In this document: in pieces, positions 6,654 to 10,127 of the stretch
Numbering within the stretch: position 1 is the first letter of the stretch
How the letters are laid out: each line of letters begins with the position of its first letter
NCBI GenBank assembly: GCA_024693415.1
Contig: JAILKX010000239.1
Coordinates: 1-14,294 of the forward strand
From: Bacilli bacterium
Lineage (GTDB): Bacteria; Bacillota_I; Bacilli_A; RFN20; CAG-826
DNA: 14,294 bases
Direction: 5' to 3'
Program-made: the position numbers and the translations under genes
Notes under the pieces: generated by a model
The model's database searches: none
The model's input: the letters and a program-made list of their open reading frames with translations, nothing else
What the model was told of the DNA's origin: nothing

Positions 6654-7325
6654 ATGGAAAACAAAATTCTCGTCGAAACCAGCGCCCGCCACATCCACCT
6701 CGATCAGGCGGCGTTCGATTACCTCATGGCCGCCCCCGAGGGCGAGCATGCTGAGCTCGGCTTCCGCAAAGAGCTCTCCCAGCCCGGTCAGTTCGTCTCG
6801 ACCGTCAGGCTCAACCTCGTCGGCCCCGTCAACCCGAAGACCGGCAAGCCCCGCGCCATCAACGGCGTCTCGATCCTTGGACCTTTGAGGAACCTCAACC
6901 AGGTCGAAGTGAGCGCCACCGATGCCCGCACCCTCGGCGTCAATGCCCCGATCCGCCTCTCCGGCGACGTCAAAGGCTCTGGCCCGATCACCCTCGTCAA
7001 CCCCGAAAACGGCCGCGAACTCCACCTTGAAGAAGGCGTCATCGTCGCCAAGCGCCACATCCACATGACCCCTGAGGATGCCGATTTCTTCGGCGTCAAG
7101 GACGGCGAAGTCGTCTATGTCCGCGTCAAGACCGAAGGCCGCGAGACCATCTTCGGCGACACCGTCGTCAGGATCAGCCCCAAGTTCGCCCTCGCGATGC
7201 ACATCGACACCGATGAATCCAACGCCGCCAACGCTTCCGGCGTCGTCTATGGCGAGATCATCGGCATCGGCTGCGACGAGCACGAGTGCTGCTGCGGCGG
7301 CGAAGGCGAATGCCATTGCAAGTAA
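6654..7325 (+). CDS. pduL: Phosphate propanoyltransferase, PduL family, with Cys-rich tail
   Basis: A 223-residue zinc enzyme that moves an acyl group between CoA and phosphate (acetyl-CoA or propionyl-CoA to acyl phosphate). Both beta-barrel domains are complete. Zinc and active-site residues expected for PduL are present: H13 and H15 (SARHIHL), E85 (QVEVS), H135 and H137 (AKRHIHM), and H183 in MHIDTDESNAA. LSQPGQF and SGDVKGSGPITLV are also typical. There is no N-terminal encapsulation peptide and no microcompartment gene nearby, so I infer a housekeeping role in acetate/ATP metabolism in place of Pta. The last 17 residues carry six Cys and two His, an unusual extension. AGGAG (6634-6638) is 15 nt from ATG, a long spacing. 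The stop overlaps the next gene's start (TAATG), implying coupled translation. Confidence 0.94.
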   Translation: MENKILVETSARHIHLDQAAFDYLMAAPEGEHAELGFRKELSQPGQFVSTVRLNLVGPVNPKTGKPRAINGVSILGPLRNLNQVEVSATDARTLGVNAPIRLSGDVKGSGPITLVNPENGRELHLEEGVIVAKRHIHMTPEDADFFGVKDGEVVYVRVKTEGRETIFGDTVVRISPKFALAMHIDTDESNAANASGVVYGEIIGIGCDEHECCCGGEGECHCK

Positions 7326-7609: not shown

Positions 7610-8705
7610 TCCGAGCGTCACCGACGTCAAGACGACGCTCGTGAACCTCAGCAACTCCATCCTCAAGCATTATGGCCATGAGACTTTTCATGCCACGATC
7701 CCTGAGTTCGACAATCTTTTCAAGGGACATCGCAAAATCGCGGTGTTCCTTTTCGATGGGATGGGCGAAGCGATCCTCAGGAAGCACCCGTTCGCCGGCA
7801 AATCCTTCCTGAAGCACGGCTTCTTCACCATCCATAGCGTCAACCCCGCGACCACCGTCGCCGCCACGACCGCCTTTTTGACCGCCAAATTCCCGATCGA
7901 GACCGGCTGGGTCGGCTGGAGCCAGCAGTTCGACAATTACGGTCTGCCGATCGATTGCTTCCGCGGGACGAGCTCAATCGACAAAGCCAAGGTCGAGGGC
8001 TTCTCGATGGACGAGGAGTGCCCGGTCACGCGCCTTGATCAGCTGCTGGGCGAAGTAGGGGTGAAGGCAAAGCTTTCCTATCCCTTCCCTTTGAGCGAGG
8101 AGGGCGCCAAGGATTACCGCGAGATCTCCGCAAAAGCCGAGGCATTCTTCCGCGGAGGCGGCGAATTCCTCTATAGCTATTGGAAGGAACCCGACCACAT
8201 CATGCACGAATACGGCACCGAGAGCATCAGGGCCGGAATCCTCATCCACAAGCTCAAAAGGGCGGTGGAGCGCTTCGCTAGGCGCAACCCCGACGTCCTG
8301 TGTCTAGTGATCGCCGACCACGGCCAGCTCGATGTGCAGTTCCGCGACTTCGCCGCGATCGATGAGCTCCGCGATTCGATCAGGAAGCCGATGTCGCTGG
8401 ACGGCAGATGCCGCAGCTTCTTCGTCGCCGAAGGGTATGAGGATACGTTCGTCCCCCTTATGGAAAAAAATTTCCCCGATTACGTCCTAATGACCGCCGA
8501 CGAGGCGATCGAGGCGCAATTCTTCGGCGAAGGGACCCCGCATCCGCGCATCAAAGAATTCTTGGGCGATTACGTCGGGACGACGTCCGGAAACGGATAC
8601 ATCTACGACAGCATCCGCAAGAAGAACAACCACATCCTGATCGGCCACCACGCCGGGATCCATAAAGACGAGAAGGACATCCTGGTATCGGTATTCAATA
8701 ATTGA
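7593..8705 (+). CDS. Alkaline phosphatase-superfamily hydrolase (type I phosphodiesterase/nucleotide pyrophosphatase)
   Basis: A 370-residue two-metal hydrolase. The metal ligands expected for this fold can be assigned: D55 (FLFDGMG), nucleophile T87 or T88 (NPATTVAATTAF), D201 and H205 in PDHIMHEYG, D242 and H243 (ADHGQLD), and a late His at 352/353 (GHHAG). Such enzymes cleave phosphodiesters, pyrophosphates or phosphomonoesters; the substrate here is unknown. No signal peptide or membrane segment is visible, so it is probably cytoplasmic. AAGGAG (7577-7582) and AGAAGG (7584-7589) lie inside the end of the TSCPD gene, 10 and 3 nt before ATG 7593. The gene closes the pduL operon and is followed by a terminator. 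Confidence 0.88.
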   Translation: MKPLFDPSVTDVKTTLVNLSNSILKHYGHETFHATIPEFDNLFKGHRKIAVFLFDGMGEAILRKHPFAGKSFLKHGFFTIHSVNPATTVAATTAFLTAKFPIETGWVGWSQQFDNYGLPIDCFRGTSSIDKAKVEGFSMDEECPVTRLDQLLGEVGVKAKLSYPFPLSEEGAKDYREISAKAEAFFRGGGEFLYSYWKEPDHIMHEYGTESIRAGILIHKLKRAVERFARRNPDVLCLVIADHGQLDVQFRDFAAIDELRDSIRKPMSLDGRCRSFFVAEGYEDTFVPLMEKNFPDYVLMTADEAIEAQFFGEGTPHPRIKEFLGDYVGTTSGNGYIYDSIRKKNNHILIGHHAGIHKDEKDILVSVFNN

Positions 8706-8707
8706 TG

Positions 8708-8739
8708 CAGGCGCCCGCATATGCGAGGCGTCTGTTTTT
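8708..8739 (+). terminator. Rho-independent terminator of the pduL operon
   Basis: CAGGCGCC (8708-8715) pairs with GGCGTCTG (8727-8734) with one G-T pair. The loop region is itself the palindrome CGCATATGCG. TTTTT follows. Confidence 0.88.
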
Positions 8740-8742
8740 GAC

Positions 8743-8771
8743 TTGAACCGCAGGCCATAATGTCATATAGT
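8743..8771 (+). promoter_or_regulatory. Promoter of metK
   Basis: TTGAAC (8743-8748), a 17-nt spacer and TATAGT (8766-8771). Initiation near 8778 gives a leader of about 175 nt that starts with the small hairpin CCGA-GAAA-TCGG (8779-8790). Confidence 0.75.
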
Positions 8772-8788
8772 TTTGCCACCGAGAAATC

Positions 8789-8889
8789 GGACATCCAGAA
8801 GCGCCGCCGCATCAGCCTTGGGCGCTAGCAACTCCGCTATAGCGGTAAGTGCTCGCTGATTGCCCCTGCCCACAAGGGGAACGATGTTC
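8789..8889 (+). ncRNA. Putative SAM riboswitch aptamer (SAM-I/SAM-IV clan topology)
   Basis: The metK leader folds into a four-way junction. P1 is GGACATC (8789-8795) with GATGTTC (8883-8889). P2 is AGCGCC (8800-8805) with GGCGCT (8821-8826). P3 is CCGC-TATA-GCGG (8834-8845). P4 is CCCC (8863-8866) with GGGG (8876-8879). The P2 loop ATCAGC (8811-8816) is exactly complementary to GCTGAT (8855-8860) between P3 and P4, which is the pseudoknot of the SAM-I/SAM-IV clan. The clan's core segments GCAAC (8828-8832, after P2) and GTGC (8849-8852, after P3) are in place. P2 is short and lacks a recognisable kink-turn, unlike ordinary SAM-I. Placement before metK and a downstream terminator support SAM sensing. 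The ligand is inferred; the exact class is uncertain. Confidence 0.75.
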
Positions 8890-8906
8890 GAAAGGATGGA
8901 TTAACA

Positions 8907-8937
8907 GACCTTCCGCTATGTGGGGGTCAATTTTTTT
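8907..8937 (+). terminator. Regulated terminator in the metK leader
   Basis: GACCTTC (8907-8913) pairs with GGGGGTC (8922-8928), including two T-G pairs, followed by seven T residues and then the metK ribosome binding site. Its position between aptamer and start codon marks it as the expression platform of an attenuator. AAGG (8892-8895) could pair with CCTT (8909-8912) as a weak antiterminator. Confidence 0.8.
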
Positions 8938-8954
8938 CGGGGAAAGAGAGAACC

Positions 8955-10127
8955 ATGGAAAAACAGAGAATCCTTTTCACCAGCGAATCGGTGGCCGAGG
9001 GCCATCCCGACAAAGTCTGCGACCAGATCGCCGACGCGATCCTCGACGAGTGCCTGCGCCTCGATCCGGAATCCCACGTCGCCTGCGAGGTCTTCGCCAC
9101 GACCGAGTACGTTTTGATTGGCGGCGAGATCACCTGCCACGGCAAAGTGGAGTATGAGCGCATCGCCCGCGAGGTCTTGCGCGACATCGGCTACGTCTCG
9201 CCGGAACTTGGCATCGGCTGCGACACCTGCCAGATCGATGTGAGGGTCAAAGAACAATCGCCCGACATCGCGATGGGCGTCGTCCGCGGCGACCCGCTTG
9301 AGCAAGGAGCGGGGGACCAGGGCATCATGTTCGGCTACGCCACCAACGAGACCGAAGGCTATATGCCCTTAGCGATTTCCTTCGCCCACAAGCTCGTCCG
9401 CGTGGCGACCAAACTTCGGAAAGAGGGCAAATTCAAGGGCGCCCGCCCCGATATGAAGAGCCAGGTCACCGTCGACTATAGCGGCGACAAGCCCCATATC
9501 GAGACCGTCCTCATGTCGGTTCAGCACGACCCCGACATCGACCTTGACGCCTTCCGTGCCTACATCAAGAACGAGATCATGATCGAAGCGGCGAAAAGCT
9601 TCGGCTTAAACACCGACTTCGATGTGCTGATCAACCCGACCGGCAGGTTCGTCATCGGCGGCCCGGCCGGCGACACCGGGCTCACCGGTCGCAAGCTCAT
9701 CGTCGACACCTATGGCGGATCCTCGCGCCATGGCGGCGGAGCCTTCTCGGGCAAAGACCCCTCGAAGGTCGACCGCTCCGCTTCCTATTACGCGCGCTAC
9801 ATCGCCAAAAACCTCGTGGCCGCGGGAGCGGCGGATCGCTTGGAGGTTCAACTCTCCTACGCGATCGGCGTCGCTAAGCCGATGAGCCTTGGCATCTCAA
9901 CCTTCGGGACCAAGCATTATTCCGACGAATTGATCCTCGAGGCGGCCGAGAAGTTCTTCGACGCCCGCCCCGGCGCGATCATCCAGGCTTTCGGGATGAC
10001 CCGTCCCACCTGGCGCTACCGCGACACCTGCAATTACGGCTGCTATGGCCGCCCCGACCTCGACCTCCCTTGGGAAAGGCTAGACAAGGTCGAGGAAATC
10101 AAAAGGTTCTTCGCCGAACATAAATAA
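8955..10127 (+). CDS. metK: S-adenosylmethionine synthetase
   Basis: A 390-residue enzyme, normal length for the family, making SAM from methionine and ATP in the cytoplasm as a tetramer. Family signatures are complete: GHPDK at 16-20 with catalytic His17, the GAGDQGIMFGYA signature near 117-128, and the glycine-rich GGGAFSGKDPSKVDRS near 260-275, which forms the phosphate-binding loop. SASYYARY replaces the commoner SAAYAARY just after it, a mild change. The start lies after GGGGAAAGAGAG and fits the conserved N-terminus. It stands alone in its unit; the leader with aptamer and terminator indicates feedback by its own product. Confidence 0.98.
   Translation: MEKQRILFTSESVAEGHPDKVCDQIADAILDECLRLDPESHVACEVFATTEYVLIGGEITCHGKVEYERIAREVLRDIGYVSPELGIGCDTCQIDVRVKEQSPDIAMGVVRGDPLEQGAGDQGIMFGYATNETEGYMPLAISFAHKLVRVATKLRKEGKFKGARPDMKSQVTVDYSGDKPHIETVLMSVQHDPDIDLDAFRAYIKNEIMIEAAKSFGLNTDFDVLINPTGRFVIGGPAGDTGLTGRKLIVDTYGGSSRHGGGAFSGKDPSKVDRSASYYARYIAKNLVAAGAADRLEVQLSYAIGVAKPMSLGISTFGTKHYSDELILEAAEKFFDARPGAIIQAFGMTRPTWRYRDTCNYGCYGRPDLDLPWERLDKVEEIKRFFAEHK

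Follow-up and report, generated by a model that had tools for sequence, protein, structure and literature searches.

The metK gene of the 14,294-nucleotide stretch of DNA analysed here (the window) is preceded by a leader RNA that we read as a probable S-box-derived transcriptional off-switch for SAM, in which P2 is compact and the loop of P4 may take part in the on-state. That C-rich loop, CCCACA (8869..8874; all features lie on the + strand), is the exact complement of TGTGGG (8919..8924), which runs from the terminator loop into the terminator 3' arm and would be its alternative partner, and such a match, of 5–9 Watson-Crick base pairs and again involving the terminator loop and its 3' arm, was found in 67 of 94 leaders, that of the window included. 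The original prediction caught the anatomy of the leader but missed this complementarity, its most unusual part.

Methods

Relatives were gathered by a metK search, and upstream regions were extracted from genomes in the family that includes G001 (source of leader L001), of which 116 were searched and 110 had metK. The upstream set comprised 112 sequences: 110 from one Bacilli family, L003, and the window. Ninety-five were parsed; the 17 unparsed sequences were eight with the core motif and an unusual P2 or joiner, L105 (also with the motif), three cut by a contig end, and five without the motif, three of these being second metK copies. The 61 non-redundant parsed leaders (alignment A3) formed the covariation set, and 48 hand-picked among them formed alignment A1 and aptamer model R1. 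In swap tests, the match between a leader's own strands was compared with that of strands exchanged between leaders; dropping duplicates left 85 of the 95 parsed leaders for the pseudoknot PK1, and dropping duplicates and P4-less rows left 88 of the 95 for P4. Classification of P4 matches and the metK tree covered 94 leaders, the second contig of G009 having been dropped. Counts of P4 pairs came from scripts, the tool-made alignment A2 (43 of 49 sequences) having misplaced gaps in the P4 loop. Control metK leaders, of a related and mostly kink-turn-bearing type, could be parsed in 22 of 23 cases; L253, L256, L260, and L261 among them look like eroded kink-turns.

Results

The open reading frame of metK, the presumed target gene (8955..10127), starts with ATG at 8955 and encodes the three S-AdoMet_synt domains of S-adenosylmethionine synthetase (Pfam PF00438, PF02772, and PF02773); the nearest MetK seen, from G096, is 81% identical to it. 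Second copies of metK (L190-L192, in G056 and G029) lack this leader, and their MetK is ∼50% identical to the window's. Because the upstream gene ends at 8705 and is followed by a hairpin and T run near 8710-8738, a feature read by eye from the sequence and absent from the list produced by the terminator scan of the window, metK looks like a transcription unit of its own, separate from the upstream gene. A sigma70-like promoter, TTGAAC-17-TATAGT (8743..8771; 9 of 12 consensus matches), would place the start near 8778; two such sites were found in 8600-9000, as compared to 0.3 expected from shuffled sequence. A sub-threshold Rfam match to RcsR1 at 8677-8738 (28.2 bits, cut-off 60), which overlaps the T-run hairpin 3' of the phosphodiesterase-like upstream gene, and one to PVT1_3 (7.9 bits) were taken as chance.

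Helices P1 to P4, the exact 6-bp pseudoknot between the P2 loop and J3/4, the GCAAC and GTGC core, and the seven-T terminator ahead of metK, all of which had been predicted, could each be located, within 8787-8937. P1 is a 9-bp helix with one G-U pair, formed by TCGGACATC (8787..8795) and GATGTTCGA (8883..8891), and its columns vary among relatives by paired changes. The J1/2 joiner CAGA (8796..8799) leads into P2 (8800..8826), where AGCGCC (8800-8805) and GGCGCT (8821-8826) make an uninterrupted 6-bp stem with no internal loop, as foreseen in the claim of a P2 of about 6 bp that lacks a kink-turn. The 15-nt P2 loop contains the 5' strand of PK1, ATCAGC (8811..8816), whose partner is GCTGAT (8855..8860) in J3/4. 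P3 (8828..8852) carries GCAAC at 8828-8832 and GTGC at 8849-8852, a motif also present upstream of metK in relatives, and P4 (8863..8879) pairs CCCC (8863-8866) with GGGG (8876-8879) in columns that change on both sides. Two nucleotides past P1 lies the proposed 5' strand of an antiterminator, GGATGG (8894..8899); its predicted pairing with CCTTCC (8909-8914) has five pairs and one U-U mismatch, is worth −6.6 kcal/mol, and takes zero P1 nucleotides. The terminator hairpin (8907..8928) was given both by the predicted fold and by the terminator scan, and its U-tract of seven T (8931..8937) was read in the sequence. The classical S-box opening had been called missing; its letters are indeed altered, but most of the change is a compensated P1, with CTTATC/GATAAG of the relatives replaced by GGACATC/GATGTTC in the window and the form of the joiner kept.

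The 5' end of the leader, CCGAGAAA, is complementary to the U-tract, UUUUUCGG, and this pairing closes the minimum-energy fold of the window. Among the 12 leaders of the window's clade, own strands paired over 5.17 bp and swapped strands over 4.73 bp, and swaps were as good as own strands in 6% of trials (18% for the 79 other leaders); a functional pairing of the 5' end with the U-tract in this clade is an unproven lead. The segment CCGAGAAATCGG (8779-8790) can fold a hairpin with a GAAA tetraloop just 5' of P1 or, alternatively, pair with the U-tract and the following CGG (8931-8940), and CGAAAA/UUUUCG matches of the same kind occur in several close relatives with marginal statistics.

The predicted fold of the leader was only modestly better than that of shuffled sequences (z = −2.16; 5 of 200 shuffles equally stable), so the case for a structure beyond chance rests on comparison rather than on folding energy. 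The GCAAC/GTGC motif precedes metK in 104 of the 112 upstream sequences (93, 10 more on turned loci, and L105). Collecting metK leaders from relatives, as the original prediction had proposed, revealed covariation both in the helices, where both partners vary in 19 of 25 consensus pairs among the 61 non-redundant parsed leaders (17 of 26 among the hand-picked 48), and in PK1, whose own strands match over a mean of 5.32 bp as compared to 3.78 bp when swapped (n = 85; maximum over 2000 swaps, 4.16 bp). The inner P1 pairs ATC/GAT occur in 90 of the 95 parsed leaders, with part of the 5' side fixed by the parser, and next to the core 91 have a U-A pair and four a C-G pair. The joiner follows the pattern [AC][AC]GA in all 95 (AAGA in 76, CAGA in 14, CCGA in 4, ACGA in 1), counts that are biased because the parser demanded nearly this form; unparsed L133 carries AGGA. 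Three metK leaders (L180-L182, from G060, G078, and G091) are extreme, P4-less versions, where the PK-1 strand and a handful of bases are all that separates GTGC from P1.

The core and joiner letters, which we take to be the SAM pocket, are conserved throughout the parsed leaders, most of them having been imposed by the search anchors and the parser. SAM is very probably the ligand. Rare SAM-I variants do sense spermidine, and one of these precedes metK in Oceanobacillus damuensis (PMC10853860), a precedent for a metK leader with a ligand other than SAM. In the spermidine variants, however, nucleotides that contact SAM are altered (PMC10853860). Here the core and joiner letters are kept, even if the leaders were partly found through them, and we regard a ligand other than SAM as very unlikely.

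In all parsed leaders P2 is one uninterrupted stem closed by its loop, with 6–9 bp in 88 of the 95 and 3–5 bp in the other seven. Only 16 of the 95 loops allow any Watson-Crick helix of 3 bp. The kink-turn within P2 that is a feature of SAM-I riboswitches is therefore lacking from these leaders. Outside the family sample, metK leaders L253, L256, L260, and L261 have P2 loops such as GATGAGGATCGTTTTAAAG that resemble partly eroded kink-turns; these loops suggest that the kink-turn may have started to be lost on more than one occasion.

The Rfam scan of the window returned no SAM family even at E ≤ 10, which agrees with the original prediction of a structural variant: the leader is kink-turn-less and goes unrecognised by Rfam. 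Fourteen close relatives likewise gave no SAM match at E ≤ 1. L003 reached 42.6 bits to RF00162 (cut-off 44.4); of 20 other relatives, six matched it at E ≤ 0.01 and two exceeded the cut-off, and RF00162 was the only SAM family that relatives matched. Five metK leaders of an Erysipelotrichia type pass the RF00162 cut-off and, judged from three of their sequences, are read as having a kink-turn-like bulge. Because less diverged relatives bridge the gap to RF00162, the window RNA is most likely an S-box (SAM-I) descendant that has lost the kink-turn of P2. It possesses the P1-P4 junction, PK-1, the GCAAC/GTGC core, and the J1/2 joiner of RF00162 and falls short of the gathering cut-off (44.4 bits).

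Membership in the SAM-I/SAM-IV clan, also proposed at the outset, is borne out by the core and by homology; the narrower suggestion of a SAM-IV-like or SAM-I/IV identity is not. Riboswitches of the SAM-I-IV-variant family (RF01725) carry PK-2. In the window's relatives, P3 loops and 3' tails, which PK-2 would join, matched no better within leaders than between them (own 3.66 bp, swapped 3.78 bp). A P2 without an internal loop does speak for such an identity, as it is described for SAM-I/SAM-IV variants (PMC2864571), but the leader has both P4 and PK-1, and its relatives match RF00162 only. SAM-IV, as described in PMC6890682, has no P4 and uses its P3 loop to form PK-2; SAM-I/IV has P4 and lacks PK-1. 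We thus rejected SAM-IV (RF00634) on the presence of P4, the negative P3-loop/3'-tail signal, and the want of an Rfam match, and the SAM-I-IV-variant on the presence of PK-1, the missing PK-2 signal, and again the want of an Rfam match; that the RNA is a true member of either is extremely improbable.

Within the class, 54 of 296 genomes had a match to aptamer model R1 under stricter filters. Seventeen R1 matches outside the family sample were examined; one (L268) was of the same kind, and the other 16, mostly of kink-turn or eroded kink-turn types, were not. Within the order, 35 of 147 genomes had an RF00162 match over the cut-off, and among 30 of these loci inspected, L204 and L215 were this metK leader and most others were other SAM-I types. 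The order's genomes also hold short kink-turn SAM-I riboswitches that apparently lack P4, with the pattern CCATAAAGAG...GACAAGC...GCTTG (L195, L198-L200, L202, L207-L209, L211, L212, L214, L216-L219, and L221). They precede several kinds of gene, by eye metK in L198, L208, and L221; the frame behind L202 looks like a phosphate propanoyltransferase (PduL), a family that is also encoded at 6654-7325 of the window.

The complementarity between the P4 loop and the terminator is maintained through change. Co-varying versions of the match include CCCAGAA/TTCTGGG, CCCATAA/TTATGGG, and CCCACC/GGTGGG, and the base that follows CCA is Watson-Crick paired in 64 of 65 cases, through C-G, G-C, or T-A (5000 shuffles: mean 40.1, maximum 50). 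The outer pairs are less constant: Watson-Crick pairing holds for the base before CCA in 59 of 65 cases and for the second base after it in 51 of 64. The metK tree requires at least four changes of Watson-Crick state at the base before CCA, at least three at the first base after, and at least five at the second. Own partners pair over 5.69 bp and swapped partners over 4.67 bp (n = 88; maximum of 2000 swaps, 5.01 bp), these swap and shuffle statistics being calculated without a full phylogenetic null. The CC[AC] motif is found in P4 of none of the 22 control leaders. Match length alone is a weak criterion, since eight of these 22 also have some match of at least 5 bp anywhere, as compared to 70 of the 94 leaders studied here.

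The eight control leaders with such a match, and the swapped mean of 4.67 bp that GGG-rich terminators and CCC-rich P4 loops yield by themselves, speak for a complementarity that has no function, the leader being an ordinary off-switch of the SAM-I type. That reading leaves unexplained why own partners exceed every one of 2000 swaps and why the base after CCA stays paired through three different base pairs, and we consider it improbable.

Leaders with and without the P4 match also tend to differ in their predicted expression platforms. In 23 of the 27 leaders counted as lacking the match (three of which have a 4-bp match), the predicted antiterminator takes at least three nucleotides of the P1 3' strand, as in the classical S-box switch. 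Among the 67 leaders with the match it takes fewer than three P1 nucleotides in 53 and at least three in 14. It contains no P1 base at all in 41 of 62 positive leaders; in 39 of these 41 its first pair lies 0–3 nt past P1, and between these P1-free antiterminators and the P4-matching part of the terminator there are 2–6 nt. A quick metK tree shows 11 changes of platform type, a number that was the same under the final match classification, and at least seven changes are forced by supported branches. Because the association between match and platform is clustered on the tree, we also counted independent pairs: of seven, an average of 4.5 went the expected way and 0.2 the opposite way, which is not significant alone (sign test, median p = 0.125).

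The position of the match bears on the direction in which it would act. It is heavier in the terminator 3' arm than in the loop in 47 of 62 positive leaders, and the loop contributes at most two matching nucleotides in 31 of the 62 (median 2.5). A full P4 match and a closed terminator thus need the same bases and are incompatible, which favours competition between them. Median energies, calculated without loop or tertiary penalties, were −14.0 kcal/mol for the terminator, −7.4 for the antiterminator, and −9.6 for the P4 pairing. An effect of the opposite sign, in which the P4 loop of the SAM-bound RNA makes a kissing contact with the loop of the closed terminator and so strengthens that hairpin, would account for the part of the match that lies inside the terminator loop, and it has an analogue in the corrinoid L5/L13 kiss, which promotes the terminator of metE in P. 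megaterium (PMC10653944). With most matches mainly in the 3' arm and half offering two loop nucleotides or fewer, such a kiss seems to us rather unlikely, and an antiterminator role for the P4 loop is somewhat the better supported by the placement of the match.

Discussion

The leader of the window is highly likely, on the evidence of its sequence and that of its relatives, to be an off-switch for metK. Binding of SAM would close P1 and allow the terminator to form, such that a high level of SAM stops SAM synthesis, and the compact P2 would still bring its loop to PK-1 without a kink-turn. In the on-state proposed for the window and most relatives, the short antiterminator GGATGG/CCTTCC would be joined by the pairing CCCACA:TGTGGG of the P4 loop; without SAM, the two together would compete with the terminator and keep its arms apart. 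Closure of P1 by SAM would leave the P4 loop too distant to reach the tail, and termination would be favoured. This gating by distance is a tentative part of the model. There is about an even chance that the wider account holds, namely that in this Bacilli lineage a kink-turn-free SAM riboswitch uses its P4 loop as an antiterminator that captures the terminator 3' arm in place of the exchange of P1 strands, and that the two platforms were swapped repeatedly.

The kink-turn of SAM-I, a textbook riboswitch, has been described as essential, and in the T. tengcongensis riboswitch its replacement by a simple bulge left no detectable binding of SAM (PMC3651934). About a hundred related metK leaders nonetheless manage without it. 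The bulge mutant makes the reach of the compact P2 loop to J3/4 a real structural question; a pk-turn, another kinked element, can substitute for the kink-turn (PMC4316175). Because kink-turn-less leaders mostly score below the Rfam SAM cut-off (2 of 34 leaders put to Rfam pass it), regulation of metK is under-annotated in these bacteria.

The match of the P4 loop to the stop signal suggests that metK may be switched off in an unfamiliar manner. In the open-licence literature, which leaves most subscription papers outside its scope, we found neither this metK leader nor a pairing of the P4 loop with a terminator described. A whole-riboswitch covariation model of 2026 on RF00162 gave no significant covariation between aptamer and platform (PMC13273304); if true, the P4-loop pairing would be an aptamer-platform link absent from that model. 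Two platforms on one orthologous leader would, likewise, make the evolution of switching mechanisms directly testable.

As compared to SAM-I (RF00162), these leaders share the P1-P4 layout, PK-1 between the P2 loop and J3/4, GCAAC/GTGC, J1/2, and a terminator before metK. They differ in lacking the kink-turn and P2b, in a short P2 with a long loop, and in a P4 loop that is matched to the expression platform; the Rfam SAM-I consensus has C-G next to the core, whereas U-A prevails here, as in some kink-turn leaders. The window leader and the SAM-I-IV-variant (RF01725) are alike in P4 and in a P2 without an internal loop. With SAM-IV (RF00634) it has in common the core and a second long-range contact that reaches into 3' sequence, but SAM-IV makes this pairing with the P3 loop and has no P4, whereas here P4 is present and its loop is the one that pairs. 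The nearest parallel to the platform is in corrinoid riboswitches, in which L5 (consensus UCCCG) kisses L13 of the platform upon effector binding, and the kiss works against the terminator in a cobT switch (PMC10653944). There, as here, a C-rich aptamer loop pairs with a hairpin of the expression platform; the corrinoid aptamer is unrelated, however, and the match described here enters the terminator 3' arm and looks competitive.
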